Assembly: GCF_000063445.1 (NCBI RefSeq)
Contig: NC_009464.1
Span: forward strand, 2,666,001 to 2,730,000
DNA length: 64,000 bases
Direction of reading: 5' to 3'
From: Methanocella arvoryzae MRE50
GTDB lineage: Archaea; Halobacteriota; Methanocellia; Methanocellales; Methanocellaceae
A program made the translations under genes and the position numbers. This document shows, piece by piece, positions 29,133 to 43,774 of this stretch. Every line of letters begins with the position of its first letter. Position 1 is the stretch's first letter. A model generated the notes under the pieces. It saw only the letters and a program-made list of their open reading frames with translations. It made no database searches and was not told the DNA's origin.

Positions 29133-29207
29133 GGGCGGGTCGCCTAGCCAGGACATAGCGCCGGCCTCCTAAGCCGGATACCGTGGGTTCGAATCCCACC
29201 TCGCCCG
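29133..29207 (+). tRNA. tRNA-Arg (anticodon CCT)
   Basis: A 75-nt tRNA without encoded CCA. The acceptor stem GGGCGGG pairs with CTCGCCC (one G-U), the anticodon stem CCGGC/GCCGG encloses the loop CTCCTAA (anticodon CCT, reading AGG), and the T arm is GTGGG TTCGAAT CCCAC. The discriminator base is G at 29207. The last four bases are the first part of a 14-bp target duplication, and an integrated casposon starts 10 bases later, so the tRNA is intact. Confidence 0.95.
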
Positions 29208-29217
29208 CTGGCTTTTA
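29204..29217 (+). repeat. Left 14-bp target-site duplication of the casposon
   Basis: CCCGCTGGCTTTTA is exactly repeated at 43761-43774. Its first four bases are the last four of the tRNA, so insertion restored an intact tRNA 3' end. Confidence 0.95.
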
Positions 29218-29351
29218 GGGGATAATGATATCCCCCCATTTTTTGCCGTTTTTTCTGGACGCTCCAAACTTATTATCGCCTAACAGAGGCTTGGTCTACG
29301 AATATTAATATGACAATAATTTTATAAAATATGATTTTGGACTTAATTTCA
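29218..29351 (+). repeat. Left terminal inverted repeat of the casposon
   Basis: Bases 29218-29256 are a perfect reverse complement of 43722-43760. Beyond this, similarity continues imperfectly to about 29351; both sides share the blocks CTTGGTCT, TATTAATAT, TTATAAAA and GACTTAATTTCA in the same order. The outermost 18 bases are a near-hairpin (GGGGATA, four-base loop, TATCCCC) followed by CCATTTTTT, which could terminate transcription of the upstream tRNA. Confidence 0.93.
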
Positions 29352-29610
29352 AACGAGGCCCTAATAATTTGGTCGGGGGAAATGCAACATTACCTCATAC
29401 AAAAGTCGCTTAGAAAGACGGATCTATGATAATAACAATTCCATGATTATACCTGATTATGGTCATCGTTTATACTGATCTATATCAATTTTGGAGTCTG
29501 GCATATAGCTTGGCTTAATAAGAGATATATTTGTAACGGGTATAAGGAAATACTATTTCAGTATTCATGACAAATAATGAAAAGCTTAACTATGATTGAA
29601 TTATTTTAGT
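29352..29610. other. AT-rich left shoulder of the casposon, no gene seen
   Basis: Between the left repeat and the IS4 insertion I see no coding frame, tRNA or clear repeat. Base use is as AT-rich as the neighbouring cargo. Confidence 0.5.
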
Positions 29611-29619
29611 TTACTATTT

Positions 29620-30678
29620 GAGACTTTTGCATAAGTCATCCGATGATTGTGGTCCGGGGGTTTGCTCCTTGTTTGACCTGGTAGAGTACTTGGATTTGTC
29701 GTGCTATCAGTGTGAGTCCGGTCTTTACAGTAACTCGAAGGATTCTGGTAGTTTTTACTCGTTTTAGGGTGAGGTGTTCTTTTAAAAGGTAGTTGGTGTA
29801 CTCGCAATGCATCCGGTTTTTATATAATTTGTTTAGGGTTATGTCATGGAAGGGGATGATCTCCTGTATCCGGTACCTGGGAAGCTCTTTCTTAGTGTTT
29901 CTACGGTTAGTCCTGTTAATCATAGGTATGCCCAACGGGTAAAGACGTTCGATATGCTCTCTGGAATCGTAGGCAATATCAGCAAACAGCCCGTTCATCA
30001 ATAAGCTGTGCGAGCCCATTTTCTCTAGTAGCGGCAAGACCTGTGTGGTGTCATGAATATTTGCTGGAGTCACTACACTGCAGATGGGCGCTAATGTGGG
30101 AAGATCGTACAGCAGGTGTATTTTGTACCCGTAATACATTTCGTCGGCGATATGATCGTAGCCCCATGCAGCGTCCGGATCTGTCTTGTTAAACGCCGGA
30201 AGGCTTGTGCTGTCCACTCCGACCATGCACATGAAATCCGGGTCTTTGTCCCGTATCATGCTCCTCAGAATCCGCATGATCCTGTCAATCTCTATGCTTT
30301 CTTTGAACCTGCTGAACGTGCTTTCGCTCGGCAACTGATTAAAGCCAAGAAACTCTAATTTATATAAATCACCGGCCAGTATTCTTACCAATTTACTAAC
30401 GCTCGGAATACCGGCCAACTCCATGTAGACGAGGGCTTTGAGTAAAGCGATTTTACTGTAAATCGATGGCCTGCCACGCTTATTATTCTTCTCAACGAAG
30501 CTGAAACGCTGCCAGTCAATCGCTTCTATCATCTCAAGGTACGTGTCAGAAAGTATTTTGCATTGGCAGTCGAAGCAAGAACCGGGCATCTTCCAGCCCG
30601 TACAATCGTTTTTACTGAGCATAAAACCGATACGGCTAAGATGCCCATATACTTTTTACCGATTTATGCAAAAGTCTC
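29620..30678. mobile_element. IS4-family insertion sequence nested in the casposon
   Basis: A 1059-bp element is bounded by 15-bp inverted repeats (GAGACTTTTGCATAA at 29620-29634; the mirror at 30664-30678) and flanked by a 9-bp direct duplication TTACTATTT (29611-29619 and 30679-30687). It holds one transposase gene. The clean ends and intact frame indicate a recent insertion after the casposon was assembled. Confidence 0.92.
29636..30622 (-). CDS. IS4-family DDE transposase
   Basis: A complete 328-aa transposase. The N-terminal region carries an HTH-like SESTFSRFKESIEI. The DDE acidic residues appear in MVGVDSTSLPAF (first D) and LFADIAYDSREH (second D), and the glutamate is in the IS4 signature Y-(2)-R-(3)-E-(6)-K, here YKNRMHCEYTNYLLK. 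It excises and inserts the 1.06-kb element around it. No frameshift is present, so it could be active. Confidence 0.9.
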   Translation of the reverse strand: MLSKNDCTGWKMPGSCFDCQCKILSDTYLEMIEAIDWQRFSFVEKNNKRGRPSIYSKIALLKALVYMELAGIPSVSKLVRILAGDLYKLEFLGFNQLPSESTFSRFKESIEIDRIMRILRSMIRDKDPDFMCMVGVDSTSLPAFNKTDPDAAWGYDHIADEMYYGYKIHLLYDLPTLAPICSVVTPANIHDTTQVLPLLEKMGSHSLLMNGLFADIAYDSREHIERLYPLGIPMINRTNRRNTKKELPRYRIQEIIPFHDITLNKLYKNRMHCEYTNYLLKEHLTLKRVKTTRILRVTVKTGLTLIARQIQVLYQVKQGANPRTTIIG

Positions 30679-30725
30679 TTACTATTTGATAGAAATATCC
30701 TATCTAGATCTTGCAGAGGGATGTT

Positions 30726-32618
30726 ATGGCGAATGATAGTCTTTCTAATAATCTTATTGAAAAAATTCGTAATAGAGAAATTATTTTATGGGTAGGTTCG
30801 GGTCTTTCGTTTGTCGCTGGATATCCATCAGCAAAGAGATTAGGGGCGATTATTAAAGAACACGTTACGCCTGAACAACTCAAACATTTTGATGATAAAG
30901 AATTAGATGGTATTGCAGAGGAATATGTCCAAATATATTCACGAGAAAAATTGATAAATATCTTATCCGATGTTTTCCAAAAAGAGCCTAATATTATTGA
31001 TTACCATAAAATGATAAGTGAAATCCCCCAAATAGAAGTCATAGTAACAACAAATTATGATAAATTGTTTGAGATGGCTTATGCTAATAATATATTAAAG
31101 ATAGTTACTGATTCAGATATTGCTAAATCTGCAAATGATAACATAGCTCACTTATATAAAATACATGGGTGTATAGATTCACCTGATAATATAATAATAA
31201 CAAAAAGTGATTATACAGGATTTTTTACTAACGGACAATATAACTTATTATGGAGCGCTTTAAAAGTATTAGCATCTAAGTATTCTATCCTTTTTATAGG
31301 ATATTCTTTTGAAGACCAAAATGTGAAATACGTTTTTGAAGATGTTCTAAAACAATTGGGCGATAATCATAAGGATTATTTCCTAATTTCTCCTGATTTC
31401 CCGGAGCATAAACAACAAGTTTTGAAACAATATTCAATAGAATATATCCAGATGAAAGCTGAAGATGCAATACCAAAAATATACAAAGAGATCAATGAAC
31501 ATTTAATTGATGATGGGATAAAAGGGCGAATACCGTTATTGAAATGGCAAAAAGCACTTGAGGATAGAAAAATTGAAGTGGTATCAAGTTTAGAAGGCGG
31601 AAAGGTATCAATAAAAAAGATAGGAACTAAAGACAATTCCGTGAAAGCTGGCGGTACAATTCATTTTAAAACAACTAATGATAATCGCCAAAAAATAAAT
31701 GAATTATTTGATGTAATAAATGGTAAAAAAATTGGTCAGGTCAAATTATCGAAAGAATTTGATGATTTGGACTTAAAAACATTTTTCGGTGAAAGTATTT
31801 TTATAGGTGGAGAAGAATTCAAGATCGAAGAATTGGAAATCAAATCTCCTGTGCAGGACATTAGAACAAATTTTATACTTAAAAAGTCTAAGTTGTCTTT
31901 TGAAAATGTACCGGGAGAAAAATTAAATACGGGAACAGTAGCTCAAATTAAATTACACCCACCAGGTTTCGATTTTATATTAGATTTTAAAGTAACTGAA
32001 AATGTGATGGTTGATTGTCCTATTAACTTTACGTTTCATATAGATAATGTATTACAAGGATATCAAGCACTTAATTTTTTCAACGAATGGATAAAAGGCG
32101 ATGAGTTATTAATATATATTAATTTAATAGAAAAACCTTTAATTATACCATTTTCGAATATTAATATAGAAAAGACGTGGTTAGATTCTATAAACTTTAT
32201 GTTTTTTGTATATAATATATTATATGAAATCCAAAATGAATTTAATATTATATTAAATGTCCCTAAAGAATTTTCAGATGAGGAACTTGATGATATTCGA
32301 GTCGTAAATAGTTTAATAAAACAAAAAAGAGCTAAACTAAAATCTTTCAAAATAAATATTAATTCAAAAGAGTTACAAAAAATGAATATGAATGAAATAA
32401 TGCCTAAGTTACTTTTAACTTATGATAGTATTACTTTTGGTTTGTTCGATAAAAAATTTGAATATAAAAATTGTTCGGTATATTTTGAGGATGCGTATAT
32501 CAATAATAAAGATGAAGTATTGAAACAAATGGTTGAAGGAATAGATGAACCAATAGTTGAACTTTTTAGTAATTGTGATAAAATAGTCTTGATAATCGAA
32601 CAAATAACTTTATTATAA
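30726..32618 (+). CDS. SIR2-domain protein (putative defence NADase) of the casposon
   Basis: The 630-aa protein has an N-terminal SIR2-like domain (residues ~1-260): WVGSGLSFVAGYPS (NAD-binding GxGxS), VIVTTNYDKLFE, catalytic-type HG in LYKIHGCIDS, and FIGYSFEDQNVKYVF. The remaining ~370 residues are an unrecognised beta-rich domain that could sense phage or bind a partner. Such SIR2 proteins are typical of anti-phage abortive systems that destroy NAD. The gene is far more AT-rich than the casposon core, suggesting separate origin. ATG 30726 follows AGAGGG. The next gene is a HEPN-like protein on the same strand. Confidence 0.8.
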   Translation: MANDSLSNNLIEKIRNREIILWVGSGLSFVAGYPSAKRLGAIIKEHVTPEQLKHFDDKELDGIAEEYVQIYSREKLINILSDVFQKEPNIIDYHKMISEIPQIEVIVTTNYDKLFEMAYANNILKIVTDSDIAKSANDNIAHLYKIHGCIDSPDNIIITKSDYTGFFTNGQYNLLWSALKVLASKYSILFIGYSFEDQNVKYVFEDVLKQLGDNHKDYFLISPDFPEHKQQVLKQYSIEYIQMKAEDAIPKIYKEINEHLIDDGIKGRIPLLKWQKALEDRKIEVVSSLEGGKVSIKKIGTKDNSVKAGGTIHFKTTNDNRQKINELFDVINGKKIGQVKLSKEFDDLDLKTFFGESIFIGGEEFKIEELEIKSPVQDIRTNFILKKSKLSFENVPGEKLNTGTVAQIKLHPPGFDFILDFKVTENVMVDCPINFTFHIDNVLQGYQALNFFNEWIKGDELLIYINLIEKPLIIPFSNINIEKTWLDSINFMFFVYNILYEIQNEFNIILNVPKEFSDEELDDIRVVNSLIKQKRAKLKSFKININSKELQKMNMNEIMPKLLLTYDSITFGLFDKKFEYKNCSVYFEDAYINNKDEVLKQMVEGIDEPIVELFSNCDKIVLIIEQITLL

Positions 32619-32773
32619 AATCAATTGTTCCATTAATTTTATTTATATATATTTAAAATAATATATATTGCTATACTAACGATTGTATTATATACATAAA
32701 TATGATTATTAGAAATATTTGATGCATATCCTGCTAAATCTAAACATTCTATGAACAAAACTTATAAGTTGTA

Positions 32774-33595
32774 GTGAAAAAATTAATTAACGATTATATG
32801 TCTCTCACCTATAGAAAAATAGATGCTGATTTTTTAGCTAAATTGCCTGCTAACATAAAAAGTGATATTGAAAGTTATAACAATAGGATGTTAGGCAAGC
32901 CGTTTCCTTCGGGTGAAAAAGTAATTGTTACATATTGTACATATTGCCCATATTGTAAAAAAGCAACTATGGGCGGTTTCCCTGATGAGCGTGAACCTAC
33001 ATTTTGTATGTTTTGTGGTGAAACCGATACATATATCAAAGTTACAAGGAGTCTTTCAAAAGCTAAGGATCTATTAATCCTATCAAATAATACCATAATA
33101 GATGTTAATCTTAAAAGAATATTGCATGAACAGATTATTATAATTATTGCCACAAGTATGGAGATATTTCTTAGGGACATATATGCAACTTTATTAAACA
33201 TAAGATACATAAAAAGCAATCTATCATTATATGAGCGATTTTATAGGGACAGTAAAAACGATTTTGCGACATTTGGAAAAGCTAAAAAAGAGCTACAGAA
33301 CGAATTAAATATTAATTTTAATACCTTTTTAAGCGATGATGAAATTGATAATTTAAATATTCTATCCCTAAAAAGAAATGTAATTGTACATAATGCTGGG
33401 ATAATAGATAACCCGTATATAAGTCAATCTGGGCAAAAAGATTTAGCGATAGGGAGGCAATTACCAATAATTGAATCTGAAATAAATCTATATATTGATG
33501 CGATAGAAAAATTATCGAATGGACTATTTGATATACTAAAAAAAGAGCATGAAGATGAACTCATAAAAAAATTTGAAATAATTCTTGTAAAATAA
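32774..33595 (+). CDS. Zinc-ribbon protein with HEPN-like RNase motif
   Basis: A 273-aa protein that starts with GTG. Residues 55-81 carry cysteine pairs (CTYCPYC and CMFCGE), a probable zinc ribbon. The helical C-terminal half contains R201-N-V-I-V-H206 (in LKRNVIVHNAG), the Rx4H motif of HEPN ribonuclease/toxin domains, placed in a helix-loop as in that family. It lies 155 bases after the SIR2 gene on the same strand and shares its low GC content, so they may be co-transcribed. HEPN assignment rests on the motif and helical context; no partner antitoxin is evident. Confidence 0.6.
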   Translation: MKKLINDYMSLTYRKIDADFLAKLPANIKSDIESYNNRMLGKPFPSGEKVIVTYCTYCPYCKKATMGGFPDEREPTFCMFCGETDTYIKVTRSLSKAKDLLILSNNTIIDVNLKRILHEQIIIIIATSMEIFLRDIYATLLNIRYIKSNLSLYERFYRDSKNDFATFGKAKKELQNELNINFNTFLSDDEIDNLNILSLKRNVIVHNAGIIDNPYISQSGQKDLAIGRQLPIIESEINLYIDAIEKLSNGLFDILKKEHEDELIKKFEIILVK

Positions 33596-33941
33596 GACCT
33601 CAGTCATTATAAACATTTTATATATCTCATCTGTAAAAATTCCCTAATGTGAAGATAAATGAAGTCATAAGGTAGAGCATAAGTAATCATAAGAAAGGTA
33701 TAAGAAACCTGACACAAACCTGTGTTATTCTCATAGAAAATAAAATTTCGCCTTGCTGCACTATTGTTGTTGTACTAGAATAATTGCTGAAAAACAGAAT
33801 ATTATATATTTTTCTATAACAAGTGATAAGACTTCTTAACAAAATATGAAGTCGATGCTAAGCGAAAATGACAAACTCTACAAGAAAAAAGTACAATTGT
33901 CCTGTTTTCTATAAGAGAAAACAAGAGTTGTAGTACATTTG
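33596..33941. other. Gene-free region between HEPN gene and cas1 with TIR-like block
   Basis: No gene is seen. Bases ~33853-33891 (CGATGCTAAGCGA, 15 bases, CAAGAAAAAA) resemble the inner part of the right casposon repeat (CGATGTTAAGCGA, 17 bases, CAAGAAAAAA, 43690-43729) in the same orientation. A hairpin (TGTTTTCT/AGAAAACA, 33903-33922) and an inverted pair AAGACTTCTTAAC/GTTAAGTCTT also occur, the latter just past the cas1 stop, a possible terminator. Confidence 0.45.
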
Positions 33942-35162
33942 TTAAGTCTTAGTACTATTTAGCTTACCCTTGCTCTTTTCATATATTTTGATTCGCTTGC
34001 CTTCCCGAAGGTTTTTCTGCATATACCAGAGCGTTGTTTTACTGATTCCAAGTTTTTTCCTTTCAGCTGGCGTCATTTTTAATAGTGCATCTCTAACATC
34101 CGATGGATCGTCTCTATTAACCATTATGTCCGGTGTTGTAAACTCTACCGTCTTATTTTTGTCTTGTATGAAGTTAGCGAACTGTTGAACCTGGTCAATG
34201 AGGATATTCTCATAGGTGTAGTTTTGATTCTTGTATGGTGCCTTAAGGTTGAAGTTCAGCTTTATACGCTCAATTAATTTCTTAGCGGTTGCTTCTCTTA
34301 GTCTGAGGTGGTAATTTTCTGTTACAATAAAGTCGTTCTTCTTGAGTTTCTTTTCCTCTAGTAGCTGTATTACGGATAGGTCGATGAGCCAGCGGTATAA
34401 TTCTTGGAGGTCGTAGACGAGTGGTGCACCGCTGCCTTTCATTTCATGCAGGTACCCCATTGCTGGATCGAGGCCCATAGCATTGATGGGGCGTCGTATT
34501 TGTGCTTCTAGAATAGCGTAGCCGTAGTTTAGGAGTGCGTTGATTTCGTCGCTGGCGTTCATGTTCCAGCTGTTGCTCTTGTTTCTTCTTCCGGTGAACC
34601 TGAAGTCCGGGTATAGTTTGTTGAAGACTTTTGTTAGCCTGTCCCAATACGCCTTTGCTGTCTTGGCTTCGTACACCATGATTTTGTTGATATCATGTTG
34701 TTCTTTCTTGTTATAAGCTACAAATCCCGTGTACTCGTTGATGAAGGCTTCTTCTATCTCACTCTTATCCAGCTCTTCGTAATAGTCCGATAATTCCGTT
34801 AGTAGGTTGCAGGATTTCTTGACCTTTTCTTTAATAATCTGATAAGCGATATTGTACCTTGTTGTGGGGTCGAGGTATTTGGCGTATTGTTTTACTCGTA
34901 GTTTGCCTACGCTAGTTTCTTTAGGCATCCAGGTGCCGAGCAGATTACCATTCCAATCAAGTAGTGTTAAGTTGATTTTGTGCTTCATTATCCAGCGCAT
35001 AGCCTCAAAGCTAATGTTGCCAGTAAAACCATCGATTACAATAGTATCGTGATCTATCTGATGAGGATAGAATTCATAATCATTGGTTTCAGTACTAATT
35101 TTTAATCTTCGTTTTTCTACCGATATTCTGGTTCCAAAGCCTTGAATTAGTAATGGGTTCAT
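33942..35162 (-). CDS. cas1: Casposase Cas1 with C-terminal helix-turn-helix
   Basis: The casposon integrase, 409 aa counted from the GTG at 35171 or 406 aa from the preferred ATG 35162. The Cas1 fold is clear: an N-terminal beta domain (residues 5-85; IVIDGFTGNISFEAMRWIMK), then the helical domain with active-site residues Glu168 (VYEAKTAKAYW), His242 (GYLHE) and Asp254 (VYDLQELYR). Residues ~360-395 form an extra HTH (TPAERKKLGISKTTLWYM) absent from CRISPR Cas1. By homology it joins element ends to a target, as in spacer insertion. The start overlaps the stop of the winged-helix gene by about 70 bases. No cas2 or repeat array is nearby. Confidence 0.95.
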   Translation of the reverse strand: MNPLLIQGFGTRISVEKRRLKISTETNDYEFYPHQIDHDTIVIDGFTGNISFEAMRWIMKHKINLTLLDWNGNLLGTWMPKETSVGKLRVKQYAKYLDPTTRYNIAYQIIKEKVKKSCNLLTELSDYYEELDKSEIEEAFINEYTGFVAYNKKEQHDINKIMVYEAKTAKAYWDRLTKVFNKLYPDFRFTGRRNKSNSWNMNASDEINALLNYGYAILEAQIRRPINAMGLDPAMGYLHEMKGSGAPLVYDLQELYRWLIDLSVIQLLEEKKLKKNDFIVTENYHLRLREATAKKLIERIKLNFNLKAPYKNQNYTYENILIDQVQQFANFIQDKNKTVEFTTPDIMVNRDDPSDVRDALLKMTPAERKKLGISKTTLWYMQKNLREGKRIKIYEKSKGKLNSTKT

Positions 35163-36096
35163 TTTTATCACTCGTTTTTAAGAACTTAGATAAGAAGTGG
35201 TTACTATCGTCTCTTTTCACTATTTTATTTGTTAATAAATCAGTTATAAAGAGGGATTTTAAAATCAATATTGTTAAAGATTCATTATCTTCTTTTGTAA
35301 GGGAATTAAAATTATATTCGATTATTTCATTGAAAAATTCGATAGAGAACCCTCGTTCATCGAATAATTGTTCCATAATTTTTTGAAGTAATAATGGGTC
35401 AGCGTATTTTGGTTTTAAGCTATATCTTAATGCACTTGGAGATAATAAGAGAATATCAATTATATCTTCAAATTCATCCTTTGAAATTACAAAAGATGAC
35501 CTCAATAAAAGACTATTATTTGAGCGATTATCTAGTTGATGATCTCCTAATCTATTTTGGAGTTTATCTTCAATATCCTCAATAAATGAATTTTCGATAG
35601 TCTCAACTAATCGCCTATGTTGATTTTTTATTCTATCGTCTTTATCTTCTTTTTCAATTTTATCAATAATAGAGCAATGTCGTTGATTTATTGATTCTTG
35701 AAGCAAATTGATAAGCCATTTTCCTTTGAAGTCTTCCGATGTAACGTAATGATGGTAGTATTGTGTTTTCATGAATTCTTGTTCTAATTGATTATCTTGG
35801 AAGAATTCGTGTAGATTTTTAAAATTGTCAAATCCATTTAGATAATAAGTATCGGGTTTTCCTTTACCTTGACTTCTTTTTAATAAGAGTTTATCTTCAA
35901 TAAGCTCCGCTAAATGGGTTCTTAAGACTTTGAGATTTCGGATATTAAGAGAATCTTTTAGATGATCTCGGATCGCCTGAAATGAGGTCTCACCATTATT
36001 TGCCACTAGTAAGAGGATTGTGGTTTTTGTTTTTCCTGGTGGTTCCCGGTTGTTTGGCTTCCGACGCTTCATCCAATAATGTATCGTATTTTTCAT
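35095..36096 (-). CDS. Casposon winged-helix protein
   Basis: This 333-aa protein begins with a winged HTH (residues ~20-95; KTKTTILLLVANNGETSF, then LRTHLAELIEDKLLLKR and a GKPDTYYL wing), followed by about 240 charged residues with likely coiled coil (residues 130-180). The wHTH part is not one of the core casposon families I can name. It is the first gene of the leftward operon and overlaps cas1 by about 70 bases, so it is probably a regulator or DNA-binding partner of Cas1. Confidence 0.7.
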   Translation of the reverse strand: MKNTIHYWMKRRKPNNREPPGKTKTTILLLVANNGETSFQAIRDHLKDSLNIRNLKVLRTHLAELIEDKLLLKRSQGKGKPDTYYLNGFDNFKNLHEFFQDNQLEQEFMKTQYYHHYVTSEDFKGKWLINLLQESINQRHCSIIDKIEKEDKDDRIKNQHRRLVETIENSFIEDIEDKLQNRLGDHQLDNRSNNSLLLRSSFVISKDEFEDIIDILLLSPSALRYSLKPKYADPLLLQKIMEQLFDERGFSIEFFNEIIEYNFNSLTKEDNESLTILILKSLFITDLLTNKIVKRDDSNHFLSKFLKTSDKNEPITNSRLWNQNIGRKTKIKN

Positions 36097-36322
36097 ATAA
36101 AAACCTGCCTACACAGTACACTATAATTCGGCTAAGGTGTATACCCCACACAAAAATATTTATAGGACTACCCACTATACTCGCGGTTGCTAGCCAAGCG
36201 GTAACTACGCAGCACACTAAAAAACAAGAACATAGACCGCTTGTAAAAACATTAACGAAAAACAGACAGCAAAGTGGGAAAAGGTGGGTCTGGCAACCAG
36301 GTGGGACACAGGAGACAACAAT
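36097..36322. promoter_or_regulatory. Divergent promoter region of the casposon core
   Basis: A 226-base gap separates the leftward wHTH-cas1 unit from the rightward HTH-HNH-polB unit. AATATTTATAGG (36156-36167) is a TATA candidate for the rightward operon; TTTTTATATG read on the minus strand (around 36100) is one for the leftward genes. Short GTGTATACCCCACAC-like and AGTGGGTAGT sequences nearby could bind the HTH proteins. Confidence 0.45.
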
Positions 36323-36850
36323 ATGCCAAAGAATTCCAAGGTCCCCCTTCACAGGACCACCACACAAGGATTAACCGTAGAAAACAAGGTGATGAGAGCC
36401 AAGACCACCGAAGTGGTCGGAATCGCTCGCAGAACAGGAAAGCCCATCCAGGACTTGGCCAGACAGTACGGCCTAACCATGGATGAGATAAAGCGGCATA
36501 CAGGCGCTGTGAAAAAGCTGGGAGATACCTGGGCTGTCACTGCGTATGACCATGTGCCCCGAGAAATGCTCATCTTCGAGAACGGGCGGGAAGTCCAGAT
36601 TGAAGTTGCTGACTCTCGGGAAGCTACAAAAATCAGTCAGTACCACAACGCCATACGAGGATACCTCGCAGCGAAAGGCCCTGCCAAAGAAAAAGCCCTA
36701 CGCCAACTGAAAAACTATGGGAGTATCCGCATAAAAGATGCCACAGGTCGACTACACAGTTTAGAGACTGACCCGGATGTCATCCGCGAGATTGTGTTGA
36801 GAAAGGAGGTGCCAGAGTATCCAGAACCCTACCCTGAAGGCTGGAGGTGA
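36323..36850 (+). CDS. Casposon helix-turn-helix protein
   Basis: A 175-residue protein with a central HTH-like segment (GKPIQDLARQYGLTMDEIKRH), followed by an alpha/beta part. First gene of the rightward operon, it overlaps or abuts the HNH gene. Its conserved placement beside HNH and PolB matches HTH genes described in casposons, where they may regulate transcription or help replication. ATG 36323 follows a GGAG ribosome site; the in-frame start at 36284 lacks one. Confidence 0.7.
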   Translation: MPKNSKVPLHRTTTQGLTVENKVMRAKTTEVVGIARRTGKPIQDLARQYGLTMDEIKRHTGAVKKLGDTWAVTAYDHVPREMLIFENGREVQIEVADSREATKISQYHNAIRGYLAAKGPAKEKALRQLKNYGSIRIKDATGRLHSLETDPDVIREIVLRKEVPEYPEPYPEGWR

Positions 36851-36855
36851 TAACG

Positions 36856-37347
36856 ATGGTTACAAACCTAACTGTCATCGTAGCCCGGAGGGTAGTGGAA
36901 TGGAGAGACGACGTACAAAACCAGCTGGGGCATATTCCACAATACGTTGAGGAAGCTGATTGCTGGGTGATGGAGCTAACAATACGCAATGAATCCTCTC
37001 GAAAAAGGAATCGCTGCGAAGCATGCATCAAAAATGGTCCCATGGATGGCCACCATTTAGCTGGAAAGGCATTCGAAGACGTATGCCCCCAGAAAGCATG
37101 GATCTGCAGACAGTGCCATGAGAGCTTCACACCTGAACAAGCAGTAAAGGACAAGCTCCTCAGTATAGCATGCGAAAATCACAGAAGGAAAAAGCCGCGC
37201 TTAGAAACAGGGTATGCCTCATTCCTGCTAGGATTACAGAACCTGATCATGCTCAAAGCCAAAGCATGCGACCAGCCCCTCTTAGAGGGGTTATCGAAAA
37301 AGTTCACACCAGACATAATCGAACTACTCGGGATATACAATGGATGA
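36856..37347 (+). CDS. HNH endonuclease of the casposon
   Basis: A 163-aa nuclease with an HNH motif framed by zinc cysteines: CEACIKNGPMDGHHLAG (first CxxC and His pair) and KAWICRQCHESF (second CxxC and final His). HNH enzymes nick or cut DNA with a metal ion; in casposons this is a regular core gene whose role is untested. ATG 36856 lies 9 bases after GGAGG (36842-36846), whereas GTG 36847 does not. It overlaps polB by eight bases. Confidence 0.88.
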   Translation: MVTNLTVIVARRVVEWRDDVQNQLGHIPQYVEEADCWVMELTIRNESSRKRNRCEACIKNGPMDGHHLAGKAFEDVCPQKAWICRQCHESFTPEQAVKDKLLSIACENHRRKKPRLETGYASFLLGLQNLIMLKAKACDQPLLEGLSKKFTPDIIELLGIYNG

Positions 37348-40162
37348 TATCTACGTTAGGTACCACATGGGCCGTGGAGAACAGGCCGAATACCACAACG
37401 CTGGCCAGCCAACAATTAACAATAGCAGAATAGACCTGGTATTCGATACTGAGACTACCACGGATCGGTACCAGAACCTAACGTTCGGCTCATGCGGTGT
37501 CTGGGTGAACGGCAAGCCTGACAGGTTCCTAATTTTTTTCGACCATGAACTACCAAAACCCAGCACAGACATCATAAAAGCCTACAACATCCAGTACAAC
37601 ACCGAAAAAATACTAAACGACAAACTCCCCGGAACAACATTTAACTCCTACGAGCTGATGACAAAGGAGGAATTCGTGGAAAACGTACTCTTCCCCTACG
37701 TATTTCAGGCTCGCGCTAACTGCATCTGCTTTAACATACCCTTCGATATCACCAGACTCGCCATAAAGTTCTCAGAGTCGAGAAAATACAATAACGGCTT
37801 CTCAGTAACACTATCCGAGAATCCTAATAACCCTCGCATAGTCATAAAACACATCGATTCTAAGAGAGCCTTTGTAGAACTTACAAATCCAGATCGCAGT
37901 AAGGGTAAAAAGAAGAAAAAGCGGAGACCTTTCCGGGGCAACTTCCTCGACCTCCGAACATTCACATTCGTCCTAACCAACGAAGGATATGACCTGGGAA
38001 GAGCGTTACCGGACTTCGGTAGCAAATTCAGGAAAATGAGCCCGGAGGAACACGGGAAAATCACACCTGAGTATATCACCTATAACATAAATGATACCCT
38101 GGCAACTTACGACTTATACGTTCAGGCTTTGAAGAGGTACCGTTGGTACTGTCTTGATAAAACACCCACCAAACTGTACTCACCGGCCAGCATCGGGAAA
38201 GCCCTTCTCGACAAAATCGGCATACTTCCATTCCACTTTAAAAACCCGGAGTTCCCTGAAGAAATTTTGGGCTATGTCATGATGGGCTACTACGGAGGCC
38301 GTACAGAGACACGCATACGCAAAGAACCCAGACTAATAACATGCCTCGACTACATCAGCATGTACCCCTCTGTATTCGTCCTCCTGAACATGTACAGATT
38401 CCTAATCGCCAAAAACATCCTGCGAGAAGATGCCACAAAAGACGCTCAGACGTTACTTGACAAGATAACCCCAGAGGATATCCGTAACAAGGAGCTATGG
38501 AACGATTTCACAATCATTTGTGAGCTTGAGCCTAACGAGGATAAAGTCCCTGTAAGGTCCTCATATGGCAATAAGTACGCACTTAACATTGGCATTAATT
38601 ATCTTATCTCGACAGATGGTTCAACGATTTGGTACACCCTTATCGACCTTATCGCTGCAAAAATGGACCAGGGGAAAGCACCCAGGATAAAAAGAGCTAT
38701 CAGATTCATCCCGAGTGAGCCACAGGATAACTTAAACTCAATAACCTACCTGAAAGGCTTACCACCCTTAGAACCCGGCGCTGACCTGATAAAATACCTG
38801 ATCATCGAGCGAGACCATATCAAAAAGCTCATGAAAAGCCCTGAATGGGAAGGCAAAAAGGACACAGAGGAATACCGAGAACTGGAGATATCAGAGCAAA
38901 TCCTCAAAATCATAGCCAATTCCACCTCCTATGGCATATTCATCCAGCTAAACCCCGAAGACGCCGATAGCGAAGAAGTAACTATCTTTTGCGATCAAAC
39001 CTTCACAGCCGAGGTAAACAAGATAGAGAAGCCAGGCCCAGCATTTAACCCTATTATGGCAGTGTTCCTCACAGCAGGCTCACGCCTTATTCTTGCAACA
39101 GCCGAGGCCTTAATCACCCGTGAAAACGGGTATTTCGCCTACTGTGACACTGATAGTATATTCATATCACCCGAACACGTACCCATGATCCAGGAATTCT
39201 TCCGAGACCTCAACCCCTACGGAGTACACATAGAGGACATGTTCAAAATTGAAGATAACAAGAGTCGGAAGAAAAAAGTCAAAAGAGTAGTCAAACTTGA
39301 AAACGTCTGGCTATACGCCATATCCGCAAAAAGATACGTCCTATACCATGTACACGATAATGGGGCAATCGAGATACTCAAGTACTCATCACACGGACTC
39401 GGTCATCTTATGAACATCGATGAGGCCCAGATCTGGATGGACATCTTAACTTTACACTACCACCCAGAAGAGGCCGATGAGATATTCCAGCGGTACAAGG
39501 GCAAATACGCTTTCTCAAAACTGGCCATCACGACATATGACATATGGGCTCGGGTAAACAAGCGTAATCAAGGCAAGCCACTCAAAGAACAGATTAAGCC
39601 ATTCAATTTCATCCTTGTAGGAACCTCATACCGCACAGACCCAGAGACAAAACAGCCAATAATCCCCACCTGGCCTTACAACAGCGCTGACGACAAAGAA
39701 TTCGCAAAACTACCATACATGCCATTCATCGATTACAAGACCGGCAAAACCTACACAAACCCACCAGCAGCTGGTCAGGAATTCAGCACCGAATTCTACC
39801 TAAAACCAATGGATGAAGTACTCTACGACTATGTCAATCACCCGGAGGCAAAATCCGAAGGCGATACAGGACTACTAAAGTCAAGGTACCTTCACATAAA
39901 TAAAGCATCCATACACCGCATAGGAAAAGAATCCGATGACATAGAAAACTCTCTAATATTTGGTCTACCCTCGGATTCGTATGGGGAAGTAGCAAATATC
40001 TACCAGGCAATAAGCAACCTTACGCCAAAAGATGCTGGAAAACTGGGCATACCAGAAAGAACCCTTAGGAAGTGGAAAGCAAAAATACGGGAAGGTAAGC
40101 CACTTAACATGAAAAACAGTGTAATTATAAAATTAAAAAGGCCTATTGAATCAATAGAATAG
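37340..40162 (+). CDS. polB: Family B DNA polymerase of the casposon, with C-terminal HTH
   Basis: A 940-residue replicative-type polymerase. The proofreading exonuclease motifs are VFDTETTT (Asp36, Glu38), FNIPFDIT and YNINDTLATYD. The polymerase motifs are DYISMYPSV (motif A, ~337), NSTSYGIF (motif B, ~527) and YCDTDSIFI (motif C, ~602). All catalytic acids are present. The last ~40 residues, TPKDAGKLGIPERTLRKW then REGK, resemble the HTH tail of the casposon Cas1. It would replicate the element. It overlaps the HNH stop by eight bases. GC content is intermediate between host and SIR2 cargo. Confidence 0.95.
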   Translation: MDDIYVRYHMGRGEQAEYHNAGQPTINNSRIDLVFDTETTTDRYQNLTFGSCGVWVNGKPDRFLIFFDHELPKPSTDIIKAYNIQYNTEKILNDKLPGTTFNSYELMTKEEFVENVLFPYVFQARANCICFNIPFDITRLAIKFSESRKYNNGFSVTLSENPNNPRIVIKHIDSKRAFVELTNPDRSKGKKKKKRRPFRGNFLDLRTFTFVLTNEGYDLGRALPDFGSKFRKMSPEEHGKITPEYITYNINDTLATYDLYVQALKRYRWYCLDKTPTKLYSPASIGKALLDKIGILPFHFKNPEFPEEILGYVMMGYYGGRTETRIRKEPRLITCLDYISMYPSVFVLLNMYRFLIAKNILREDATKDAQTLLDKITPEDIRNKELWNDFTIICELEPNEDKVPVRSSYGNKYALNIGINYLISTDGSTIWYTLIDLIAAKMDQGKAPRIKRAIRFIPSEPQDNLNSITYLKGLPPLEPGADLIKYLIIERDHIKKLMKSPEWEGKKDTEEYRELEISEQILKIIANSTSYGIFIQLNPEDADSEEVTIFCDQTFTAEVNKIEKPGPAFNPIMAVFLTAGSRLILATAEALITRENGYFAYCDTDSIFISPEHVPMIQEFFRDLNPYGVHIEDMFKIEDNKSRKKKVKRVVKLENVWLYAISAKRYVLYHVHDNGAIEILKYSSHGLGHLMNIDEAQIWMDILTLHYHPEEADEIFQRYKGKYAFSKLAITTYDIWARVNKRNQGKPLKEQIKPFNFILVGTSYRTDPETKQPIIPTWPYNSADDKEFAKLPYMPFIDYKTGKTYTNPPAAGQEFSTEFYLKPMDEVLYDYVNHPEAKSEGDTGLLKSRYLHINKASIHRIGKESDDIENSLIFGLPSDSYGEVANIYQAISNLTPKDAGKLGIPERTLRKWKAKIREGKPLNMKNSVIIKLKRPIESIE

Positions 40163-40346
40163 CCCCTACATACTTCTTTAGATAATCGCTGTTGCTATAT
40201 GCAATAGACATATGTTACAATAAAATGAAAGTATGTTGCATGCGCTTGAGTTCAACATAAAGCTACAATTATCGCCATTGTGTGCTCGAGTCGATAGTCG
40301 TTGATTGTATCCTAAAAGCGAAGAAAGCTGAGGCTATCAAGAACGG

Positions 40347-40631
40347 TTATTTAAGGAGTTTTTTATAAGCGTGGCAGCGGTAATCGTATTCTCGTAGAAT
40401 CTCGAATTCGAGCACTTGCGTTCGTATTATCATCGATCGTATCTGTTGGCCCACTTCTGATATACTTATGAGTTTTGCGGGACCACTTGCTACTATCTCG
40501 CATTGTTCGTGGAAAACCGTGTAATCCTCGACTACGTCGTTACGGATAGTAAAAACATGACAGAGTCGATGTTCGTAGATACGTACTGCAAATCCTTTGT
40601 TCAATTGGAAGATTTCAGCATCAAGGTGCAC
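40347..40631 (-). CDS. Hypothetical small protein on the minus strand
   Basis: A 94-aa frame with a GTG start and no family recognised. It reads as a mixed alpha/beta protein with a basic C terminus (YDYRCHAYKKLLK). Evidence is only the frame length, convergence with polB and plausible composition; it may be a random frame in AT-rich DNA. Confidence 0.4.
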   Translation of the reverse strand: MHLDAEIFQLNKGFAVRIYEHRLCHVFTIRNDVVEDYTVFHEQCEIVASGPAKLISISEVGQQIRSMIIRTQVLEFEILREYDYRCHAYKKLLK

Positions 40632-40735
40632 GCTTACTCATCGGCAATAACACGATAAAAACATCAGGTTATAGTATTCCGAAAATAAAAAACATAGATA
40701 GTAACAGGATTGGTTAGCAAGCAACAAACATTATT

Positions 40736-41389
40736 ATGCAAAAAACACCTCTTAACATAGAAATGCTCAATATTAAGCAACTGGTAATCGGCCTAATATA
40801 TCTTATTACAATAACATCGATATTATTCGGTTACGTTAGTGGCTTTCATATTTTTTTCGTTATACCAGCCGTGGTCTGTTTTCCGTTATGGTTTAACAGG
40901 TATGTCCATTCATTTGATAGCGACAAAGAACAGATAAAAATTTTCACTACTTGGCTTGGAGCGGCAACACTAATTATTGTTGAGTATTGGATGATTGTTT
41001 TATTTTTCGAGCAACTTTTTAAAACAATTATGGATCAGAACTCCTATGCTGATACGGGGATCATTATTTTATTTATATTAATTATAGCAGAATTAACCGT
41101 TCTTACTGGAAAAACATCTCAAAAAATTATCAGACTATTTACATATTACGATCATTACCGCCTGGGTGGTATACGCGATCTCTTGTCAAAAGAATTGTTG
41201 GTACACGGAGCATTTTGTATATACAGCATACCTATCATCCTATCGGCGGGAATCGCTGGACTAATAAATAACCCGAGTAACGCCAATAGTAAAACTGGGT
41301 TTTTATTAGTGTTTGCTATTGTTTATCTCATCGGTCAATTATTCGATAAGTTCGTCTGTAAACACGTTTTTAAAATAGACTTTGATTAA
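40736..41389 (+). CDS. Multispanning membrane protein (casposon cargo)
   Basis: The 217-residue protein has about five hydrophobic segments (LVIGLIYLITITSILFGY, FFVIPAVVCFPLWF, ATLIIVEYWMIVLFF, GIIILFILIIAELTVL and a C-terminal pair). No family is recognised. It is transcribed rightward alone and has low GC content like other cargo. Its role in the casposon is unknown; membrane effectors are common in defence and toxin modules, but nothing in the sequence shows this. Confidence 0.55.
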   Translation: MQKTPLNIEMLNIKQLVIGLIYLITITSILFGYVSGFHIFFVIPAVVCFPLWFNRYVHSFDSDKEQIKIFTTWLGAATLIIVEYWMIVLFFEQLFKTIMDQNSYADTGIIILFILIIAELTVLTGKTSQKIIRLFTYYDHYRLGGIRDLLSKELLVHGAFCIYSIPIILSAGIAGLINNPSNANSKTGFLLVFAIVYLIGQLFDKFVCKHVFKIDFD

Positions 41390-41515
41390 AAGGATACTAC
41401 TGTAGCAATTTCTTACATATTAACTTAAAAAGGTTCAATGAACCGCTTGGTATACTTATCCCATCACGAATACTTCTCAACAGTCTGGTAAGCATCTTGG
41501 TAACTATAAATATTA

Positions 41516-42430
41516 TTAATAATATATGTGTATACTGTTGATTATCCATGGCTCTTGTATGATGTAGAAATTGCCTGTATTTAATAGCAATTCCACATGG
41601 TACTGCGAACCAAAATTCGGGGTATATGCGATTTTATCATAATTGTGTGTATACACTGTGTCCCCAGTGCAATCAATATAAATGGACCCTCTATCAGTCG
41701 TATTAAAAACATTTAGGGCATGTCCAGACCCATCGGAAAATTCCAACGTAACCACGCCAGCTTTTATGCCCATACTTTCTGCATTATCATGTACCCTGAC
41801 CGCATAATCTATTCAAACAAAACTTTCCTCTCTATATGGTATTTGATCTGAATTGTCGGTTAAAACAAAATTGATTAATTCTTGATACGAAGGATTGGTC
41901 GCATTTGGGTTATTATGAATATACATATAAGCCCCAGTCGAATTGGTTTCGTAATAATGTGTATTTCCTACCTGATACGAAAGTTCAACTGTATTTGGAT
42001 CGTATATAAATTCGTAATAACCTAAACCAAGAATAGCAACCACTATCACTACGAGTATTGCAGAATACAAATTGCTATTCAAGATTGTTCTTATTGACCG
42101 AGACAGGTTAAAATTAAACCTCCGCCGGTAACGCTTTGGCTTATAAGGTTTCTTGGAAATTTTCTTTTCGAATGAGATTTGATTATTGGTGTTATTATAA
42201 TTTGAAATCGACGGGATATTTTGGGTATGTGGCGCTTCTTCCATGGTGGGTAATCTTTCAATTATTGGTGGCTCCTCAATAACCGAAAATTCCCTGATAA
42301 CAGAACTGCAATCGTGTTTTTCAGGCAGCCTATGCTCACCGCAGTATTTCCCCCCACACCTCTTGCATGTAAAGAGCAGAGGTTCGGTTTCACCACAAAT
42401 ATCGCAGCAATACACACCATTTTTAATCAT
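41516..42430 (-). pseudogene. AN1 zinc-finger/transglutaminase-like protein interrupted by TGA at the catalytic Cys
   Basis: Two frames read as one protein of ~304 residues broken by one in-frame TGA (41813-41815). Residues 8-41 form an AN1 zinc finger (CCDICGETEPLLFTCKRCGG and CGEHRLPEKHDC), with one membrane helix at ~125-145, then a transglutaminase-like domain. The segment after the stop is IDYAVRVHDNAESMGIKAG, followed by GHALNVF (catalytic His) and YIDCTGD (Asp). The stop sits where the catalytic cysteine is expected (C-x-D-Y/F-A). No frameshift occurs: the distance is a multiple of three. It is either a nonsense allele of a recently active gene, or a recoded UGA codon; the former is likelier. 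Confidence 0.7.
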
Positions 42431-42526
42431 AGGATAGCTTAATTATCACTTGTTGATCATTATAAAATGTTTCGTATGCAACCGATAAATTAAAAAGTAT
42501 ATTCATTTAATATAGTCTCGGTCGGT

Positions 42527-43414
42527 ATGTTATTGGAGATGGTTAATTCTTCAGTGGGATCATCCAATTTTGATCTGGCACTATTCATCATAGATAAAGT
42601 AAGTGATTTTATTGTTCAATTTTGTGGCGTCATTATTGGTGCTGCTATCTCATTTATTGCCTTAATGTGGAATGTGAAACGCGATGATAAAGCAAAAAAA
42701 GATGCGGACAAAGAATCATTGAAATTACATTTAAAAAGGGTTCAAAGCGAATTATATTATAATATAATAAAAATGGGATTTCTAAAAGTTGCGTGTGGTT
42801 TTACAAAGACTTATGGGGCATCGATGGAATTATTATCAGAAATATCCATTTTTTATGATAAGGAATTTAGAAGTGACGCTTATGATGATTTGATGCGCTC
42901 GGGATTGTTAATTAAGCCGGGTTTATTAAAAAATAATGAAGAAGTATTAATTAAATTATTAACTCTATATAATAAGGTTGATGATATGTTTCATAAATAC
43001 AAAGCTAACTCCCTAGAAAAATTCTACCCAGATTCAAGAGTGGATGAGTATAGCTTTGATGACGTAGATCATATTATCCAAAAATTTGCAATAGAATCCT
43101 CAGAAATGGCTGATGAAATGCTCAATGCTTTAATTTTAGTTAGCAAAGCAATAATTGAACTCTCTCCGAACGAAAAAAACAATCCAGATCAAAAACAATT
43201 TTGGAATATGGGCTTATTTGAAAATACTACTAAGCAGGATACTCCGAAAGAGAAAGTAGAATCAGAAACACCATCAATTGTATCAAAAACCAGTACTCTC
43301 ACCCCATCACCTATTCCACCACTAAGGTGGTATGATGATCGTTTTTTTAAAATCTGTTTCGGTGTGGCGACCCTGCTAATCATTATTCTTGGGGTGGCTG
43401 CAGTTGTAAGATAA
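42527..43414 (+). CDS. Membrane protein with long cytoplasmic helical region (casposon cargo)
   Basis: The 295-aa protein has a first hydrophobic segment (FIVQFCGVIIGAAISFIALM, ~29-48), a long, mostly helical charged region (residues 50-215), a PTPS-type linker, and a second membrane helix at the C terminus (FKICFGVATLLIIILGVAAV). No family is recognised. It is the last cargo gene before the right repeat, 212 bases away. Two-helix proteins with a large soluble loop are often membrane effectors or sensors, but this is only a possibility. Confidence 0.55.
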   Translation: MLLEMVNSSVGSSNFDLALFIIDKVSDFIVQFCGVIIGAAISFIALMWNVKRDDKAKKDADKESLKLHLKRVQSELYYNIIKMGFLKVACGFTKTYGASMELLSEISIFYDKEFRSDAYDDLMRSGLLIKPGLLKNNEEVLIKLLTLYNKVDDMFHKYKANSLEKFYPDSRVDEYSFDDVDHIIQKFAIESSEMADEMLNALILVSKAIIELSPNEKNNPDQKQFWNMGLFENTTKQDTPKEKVESETPSIVSKTSTLTPSPIPPLRWYDDRFFKICFGVATLLIIILGVAAVVR

Positions 43415-43626
43415 TCAAATTGATCTGAAAAGATCAGTTGCTTACTTGTAGTCACTGGCAGGACGTCTTTGTTTAGGATTAACATAACCAGTTTTTTATA
43501 TTTCAATGTTACAGTTGCTAACACGCAAATGCAATAATACGCTCTTTAACCACTAGCGTTTGTCTATATCACCCATATACTTATACTCAAAGGGCTTGCT
43601 TTAACAAGGGAATTAAACATATTCGA

Positions 43627-43760
43627 TGAAATTAAGTCTAAAAACACTTTTTATAAAAAGACTGCTATATTAATAATTAAAGACCAAGCCGATGTTAAGC
43701 GATAATATGTTTGGTATGGCAAGAAAAAACGGCAAAAAATGGGGGGATATCATTATCCCC
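43627..43760 (-). repeat. Right terminal inverted repeat of the casposon
   Basis: Bases 43722-43760 are the exact reverse complement of the left terminus (29218-29256). The imperfect extension reaches ~43627, giving 134 bp, equal to the left side. The DNA from 43415 to 43626 has no gene. Confidence 0.93.
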
Positions 43761-43774
43761 CCCGCTGGCTTTTA
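43761..43774 (+). repeat. Right 14-bp target-site duplication of the casposon
   Basis: CCCGCTGGCTTTTA, identical to 29204-29217. It is followed by ATTTTTAAG, probably the original T-rich terminator of tRNA-Arg before insertion. Confidence 0.95.

Follow-up and report, generated by a model that had tools for sequence, protein, structure and literature searches.

The casposon of the window and its C-terminal tails

The window, a 64,000-nucleotide stretch of Methanocella arvoryzae MRE50 (NC_009464.1, positions 2,666,001 to 2,730,000), contains a casposon of 14,543 bp (29218-43760) resembling family 2 casposons. Its Cas1 (casposase) and its family B DNA polymerase (PolB) carry copies of one helix-turn-helix (HTH) module at their C termini and, in related elements, the PolB copy covaries at both ends with the inner part (half) of the terminal inverted repeats (TIRs). 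The borders were set by a search for the duplication and the TIR, in which the TIR was located by target duplication plus profile; a generic repeat search and the first TIR pattern had overlooked it.

29133-29208, plus strand: tRNA-Arg(CCT), integration target (ARAGORN)
29204-29217: left target-site duplication CCCGCTGGCTTTTA, matching 43761-43774 at 14 of 14 positions
29218-29256, plus strand: left TIR, 39 bp, perfect inverted match to 43722-43760
29237-29256, plus strand: inner half of the left TIR, where a PolB-tail site is predicted from the analogous TIR positions 19-30 of 31 relatives
33942-35171, minus strand: Cas1 (casposase), 409 amino acids (PF01867, E = 3.4e-60 over residues 7-303; TIGR00287)
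33954-34103, minus strand: C-terminal HTH tail of Cas1, residues 357-406 (alignment, profiles, predicted helices)
37340-40162, plus strand: PolB, family B DNA polymerase, 940 amino acids (PF00136, E = 3.6e-4, under Pfam's cut-off)
39989-40138, plus strand: C-terminal HTH tail of PolB, residues 884-933 (alignment, profiles, predicted helices)
40052-40093, plus strand: PolB residues 905-918, the recognition-helix stretch (supported by mutual information between tail and TIR box)
43722-43741, minus strand: inner half of the right TIR, predicted PolB-tail site on the same basis as the left half
43722-43760, minus strand: right TIR, 39 bp, perfect inverted match to the left copy
43761-43774: right target-site duplication, 14 bp, same as the left copy

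With up to 3 mismatches allowed, the genome holds only these two copies of the TIR. The insertion point is the 3' end of tRNA-Arg(CCT), whose T-arm TTCGAATC (29188-29195) lies 8 bp ahead of the duplication, as judged from the sequence and the aligned leaders. The Cas1 and PolB genes are transcribed outward, so that the tail-coding ends of both face the element's ends.

The Cas1 and PolB tails are one homologous HTH module. The preliminary description had aligned them residue for residue, and its Cas1 strings (residues 367-386 and 388-392) and PolB strings (residues 895-914 and 916-920) were found in place. Cas1 357-396 and PolB 885-924 align without gaps (13 of 40 positions identical, 24 of 40 positive), which confirms the earlier alignment and is the best local alignment between both proteins. 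Support from the single pair is moderate, with a BLASTP E value of 4e-4 in a two-sequence comparison; the score of 64 was reached in none of 20,000 tail shuffles compared with 5 of 1000 whole-protein shuffles. The profile comparison envisaged earlier was also carried out. Between whole Cas1 and whole PolB, the sole significant match covered 51 tail columns (probability 94.3, E = 1e-7), the next match having an E value of 0.083, and the comparison of the tails by themselves gave a probability of 98.4 and an E value of 7.8e-15. Against all sequences of the PDB, the PolB-tail profile had one significant match, the M. mazei casposase 6opm at residues 361-412 (E = 5.5e-7). The Cas1-tail profile, run over the whole genome of the host, matched only the Cas1 and PolB open reading frames (ORFs).

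AlphaFold2 predicted helices at residues 357-364, 368-374, 378-389, and 398-406 in the Cas1 tail and at 878-893, 896-901, 906-918, and 927-933 in the PolB tail. The order of the helices is equal, and the predicted confidence (pLDDT) was about 87-91 within the HTH and low outside it. A Foldseek search of both tail models against the PDB yielded no significant match for either. That Cas1 and PolB have similar C-terminal HTHs has already been published (Krupovic 2014, PMC4046053 section 9). The second Cas1 of the genome (G000:C1:1757138-1757767; L002, L003), located beside cas-like ORFs, is without such an HTH tail.

Covariation of the PolB tail with the inner TIR box

Relatives of PolB at E ≤ 1e-20 were found in 30 of 392 genomes of the phylum, and 73 loci were taken from genome contigs, from the best 80 of 83 matches. 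Viral contigs, scanned with Cas1, PolB, and the PolB alignment, yielded no relative. TIR pairs with a 14-bp duplication were sought in 49 elements and found for most of them. The Mantel tests were performed with the 31 elements having a duplication-supported TIR pair. L085, whose TIR was judged spurious, was dropped, and the window's deep clade (W0, L072, L101, L104) was left out for its different TIR register; L041 and L049_3 were kept though their left TIR seems to be that of a neighboring element.

The PolB tail was correlated with the inner box (TIR positions 19-30) at the right end (r = 0.626) and at the left end (r = 0.554), both with an indicative P of 0.0002. The values were 0.636 and 0.560 in partial Mantel tests given PolB core, Cas1 core, and Cas1 tail. 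No such correlation was seen for the PolB core (r = 0.013, P = 0.40) or for three other core genes (r = 0.03, 0.08, and 0.005). The outer half of the TIR is similar throughout and follows the PolB core (r = 0.49), not the PolB tail (partial r = 0.03). Along PolB, the correlation with the box was 0.58 for residues 898-923, 0.22 for residues 873-897, and about 0.12 or less in absolute value before that; along the TIR, 3-nucleotide windows gave r ≤ 0.17 at positions 1-19 and 0.31-0.52 at positions 19-32. Mutual information with the box was concentrated at PolB residues 902-916 and 928. Among disjoint sister pairs, tail and box were both kept in six and both changed in six, the tail alone changed in one, and the box alone changed in none (Fisher P = 0.004). 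The helix types and their boxes correspond as follows.

RSRFQG/RSRFHG, TTLWD, and RSTFQE types: AAAAAC[CG]GAACT
RG[TN]FKR: AAAAATGCAAC
RKTFQ: [TC]GCCACT or the near variant TACCACT
RSTLKRM and RSSLKRM: AAAAACGCAACG
RGTLKRIQ: AGATACT
RS[TSA]LK[KQ]: AAAAAGTGTACG
RSALAYLKK and RSEL types: TTTTTTGTACG
RSDLIRL: AAAAACACTACG

In a post hoc leave-one-out prediction of the box (n = 36), the nearest recognition helix scored 33.9 and the whole tail 32.7, compared with 7.4 at random; the controls reached 14.5 (PolB core), 16.5 (Cas1 core), and 11.3 (Cas1 tail). Another 57 PolB tails comprised 41 with a detectable end and 16 without. The predicted box was present within 3 of 12 positions in 27 of the 41 (9.3 expected), and several of the misses were false ends. 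A blind test with a rule fixed beforehand started from 14 PolB C termini, of which four were training duplicates, five had no TIR, and five were tested. Both misses in this test have the recognition helix RSTLKRMKDR together with the box of that helix class and were mis-assigned by whole-tail identity; the TIR and duplication of one of them are those reported for MetMaz-C1 (PMC10359463). As far as our literature search reached, and leaving aside the TIR analysis of Krupovic 2016 (GBE), the covariation of PolB HTH and inner TIR is new.

Exchange of PolB tails

PolB tails are, to judge from these sequences, exchanged as cassettes between elements. L092 and L082 have PolB cores that are 87% identical and Cas1 tails that are 89% identical, with PolB tails of 24% identity and inner boxes that differ as well. 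In swapped pairs, the DNA similarity stops sharply about 150-180 nucleotides before the PolB stop codon and does not return within the 120 nucleotides inspected. In the 38 of 46 elements with complete cores, mean identity was 0.62 for the Cas1 core, 0.68 for the Cas1 tail, 0.53 for the PolB core, and 0.35 for the PolB tail.

Several unusual arrangements of the module were encountered. The PolB tail of L094 (1202-3874, Methanoculleus sp. SpSt-1176) scored 48.1 bits with the Cas1-tail hidden Markov model (HMM) versus 40.4 bits, the only such case among 104 C termini, and represents a tail exchange between Cas1 and PolB. L056 (8297-11218) and L065 (10851-12197) encode a PolB with two tandem HTH copies at the end. 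A 408-amino-acid protein, apparently a HEAT/HTH casposon protein (L049, 4210-5433, minus strand), has a PolB-like C-terminal tail (50.7 bits). In L040 (13594-13713), L059 (14147-14347), L047 (16524-16694), and L052 (15892-16011), PolB tails are present near element ends as detached remnants lacking the polymerase.

The Cas1 tail and the tRNA target

The Cas1 recognition helix is nearly invariant, reading GFSKGTLHYMK in most of 36 elements, whereas PolB helices and inner TIR boxes change in step. Among the 32 bases upstream of the duplication, GGTTCRAATCC was present about 8 bp before it in most of the 31 elements and also in the window and its clade. With targets oriented solely by the start of the duplication, C at -14 was conserved in all 31 elements, A at -11 in 29, and T at -10 in 27; exceptions to the motif were mostly second elements of tandem arrays. 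This sequence is the T-arm and corresponds to the TCAAATC leader, which the A. boonei casposase requires 8 bp before the duplication (PMC6614799). The same enzyme requires only the five terminal bases of the TIR (PMC6614799), which leaves the inner TIR without a known reader. A constant tail accompanying a constant leader is the sole basis on which we assign the Cas1 tail to the target, and the tail probably reads the T-arm GTTCRAATC. The role of the casposase tail was described as still open in 2020 (PMC6977970).

L049 with L168/L169 and L034 with L158 form tandem arrays, in which two or three casposons differ in their inner boxes and have one duplication sequence in common.

Proposed functions of the two tails

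The two copies of the HTH module are likely to have different tasks, PolB reading the ends and Cas1 most likely a constant target sequence. The recognition helix of PolB would contact the inner TIR half at both ends (about 12 bp, positions 19-30 counted from the terminus), and the tail would thereby dock the polymerase on the transposon ends, possibly for replication or end processing. The HTH module of PolB may be exchanged by recombination as a cassette, the inner TIR changing along with it. The Cas1 tail would ignore the variable box, its best candidate ligand being the T-arm immediately before the target duplication; the integrase would then be held at the target and the polymerase at the donor ends. 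With somewhat more reserve, we favor an extension of this reading to family 2 as a whole: the polymerase, not the integrase, would be the specific end reader; an exchangeable HTH helix would encode the inner TIR by a near-regular code, and a cassette swap would switch end identity; the Cas1 tail would be constant for the T-arm; a third protein (in L049) would also have acquired the module; and family 3 would repeat the matched-tail design with an unrelated type of HTH.

Several points weigh against this interpretation. The Mantel P values are indicative because the elements are related while the test assumes exchangeability. The window element, whose own inner box is a predicted PolB-tail site by analogy, stands outside the covariation test because its TIR register and outer motif differ, the register of its clade being shifted by a few bases relative to the 31 relatives, and because the clade is small. 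A weak correlation of the Cas1 tail with the box was left in the partial test (r = 0.15, P = 0.06). The blind test was small and its outcome weak, with three of five passing against a null of 1.23; two of the three successes had already been met in the 41-element test, and only one of three never-seen elements passed. The purified HTH of the M. mazei casposase did not bind DNA (PMC6977970). A family 1 casposase that lacks an HTH is very similar in its activity (PMC6614799), from which it follows that the tail need not set the target.

Binding of the inner TIR by the PolB tail could instead serve chiefly regulation, that is, repression of transcription or transposition or the distinction of self from non-self, rather than the start or priming of replication. 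HTH domains are often regulatory, and single genomes host several elements with different boxes (L034, L049). However, the tails of co-resident elements are not unusually dissimilar (P = 0.986 in that direction), so there is no sign of incompatibility groups, and incompatibility between co-resident elements was rejected. We regard a chiefly regulatory role as unlikely.

The preliminary description had both tails bind one sequence, perhaps the inverted repeats, where polymerase and integrase would meet. The homology of the tails, the Cas1-like PolB tail of L094, and the matching of tail type at the level of the family would agree with this. In bacterial family 3, the tail of Cas1 again matches the tail of PolB (probability 96.9, E = 1.5e-10), and neither matches the family 2 tails (probabilities of 0.7 to 13.3), both being of a different HTH type (IRAGRxxPHPRHW). 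Such tails were found on Cas1 of L096, L097, L098, L099, L108, L113, and L123 and on PolB of L096-L098, L107, L113, L123, and others. In each of two deep lineages, then, the kind of tail follows the element family, which suggests a working relation of Cas1 and PolB, with fine specificities that differ. Within family 2, the expected pairing was not found. In 46 elements (L063, with a Cas1 lacking the tail, omitted; some broken genes kept), tails from the same element had a mean score of 37.4 versus 37.8 for cross-element pairs (permutation P = 0.61), and in the 38 elements with complete cores no covariation of the two tails was seen after allowing for the cores (partial Mantel r = 0.06, P = 0.18). 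The Cas1 tail of the window scored better against five foreign PolB tails than against its own; the match in the window stands out in part because it coincides with the consensus of the module. As the Cas1 helix is also constant while PolB helix and box vary, a common site was rejected and is now very improbable. The suggestion of the inverted repeats fits the PolB tail well; that both tails sit there is unsupported.

Hitchhiking would explain the covariation by exchange of the 3' end of PolB and the nearby right TIR as a block, without functional contact. The 3' end of PolB does face the right end, and the sharp end of similarity before the PolB stop codon would suit such a block. But the outer TIR half, which is farther out, does not follow the tail, and the left TIR does. 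Furthermore, for pairs with a common tail and box, the DNA between the PolB stop codon and the right TIR was unalignable (<10%) in 25 of 28 and the left cargo in 28 of 28, so that block transfer does not account for the covariation and was rejected. Linkage is an unlikely cause on these alignments, and we disfavor hitchhiking slightly more still than the common site. Finally, the disorder of the casposase tail in the crystal and the failure of the isolated tail to bind DNA (PMC6977970) could point to protein-protein contact modules whose covariation is an accident of shared history, which is the least probable reading in view of the partial Mantel tests, the control genes and regions, and the concentration of the signal in the predicted recognition helix.

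Specificity domains are exchanged in type I restriction enzymes, where a swappable DNA-reading cassette sits on a conserved enzyme core. In the casposon, the enzyme would be a polymerase and the site the element's own end. The covariation allows direct and cheap testing with matched and mismatched boxes. It suggests a way in which a self-synthesizing transposon may recruit its polymerase to its ends, and it has implications for what Cas1 kept or lost between casposase and CRISPR integrase.

Family membership and other genes of the element

The window element shares with family 2 casposons (Krupovic 2014; MetMaz-C1 of Methanosarcina mazei) the genes for Cas1 and PolB and, judging by gene position, probable genes for HNH-like and HTH proteins. 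Further common traits are the C-terminal HTH on Cas1 and PolB, 14-bp duplications, tRNA targets, TIRs beginning with GGG, and a Cas1 located outside a CRISPR locus; CRISPR arrays were not searched for in the window. It differs from the Methanosarcina type in the outer TIR motif (GGGGATAATGATATCC versus GGGATATAG), the target start (CCC versus CGCA), and the 39-bp TIR. The window PolB is 34-41% identical to casposon PolBs. Cas1 residues E168, H242, D254, and E257, which we take to be catalytic, are among the columns invariant across 11 relatives. A catalytic role of H242 and D254 is supported by PMC7786333. The C-terminal tail of the M. mazei casposase (6opm), which both tail profiles match, is needed for integration (Hickman 2020); the polymerase tail is not among the subjects of the accessible part of that study.

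The putative HNH and two additional putative HTH genes are in family 2 positions, and the 188-amino-acid gene has relatives in most loci; domain searches gave no significant match for them. These genes and the cargo are listed below.

35095-36096, minus strand: core gene, probable HTH protein, named by analogy from the family 2 gene order (PMC4046053); no Pfam match
36284-36850, plus strand: family 2 core gene, probable HTH protein, 188 amino acids, with relatives in almost every locus that has a complete Cas1-PolB pair
36847-37347, plus strand: probable HNH nuclease, judged by visual inspection from CxxC and HH residues; Pfam gave no significant match
29636-30622, minus strand: DDE transposase, IS1182/IS5-like, under curated cut-offs, just after the left TIR and inside the casposon
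30711-32618: cargo gene with a SIR2-like domain, resembling ThsA-type defense proteins (PF13289, E = 9.8e-36; PADLOC ThsA, 2e-33)
41813-42430, minus strand: cargo gene, AN1-type zinc finger protein (PF01428)

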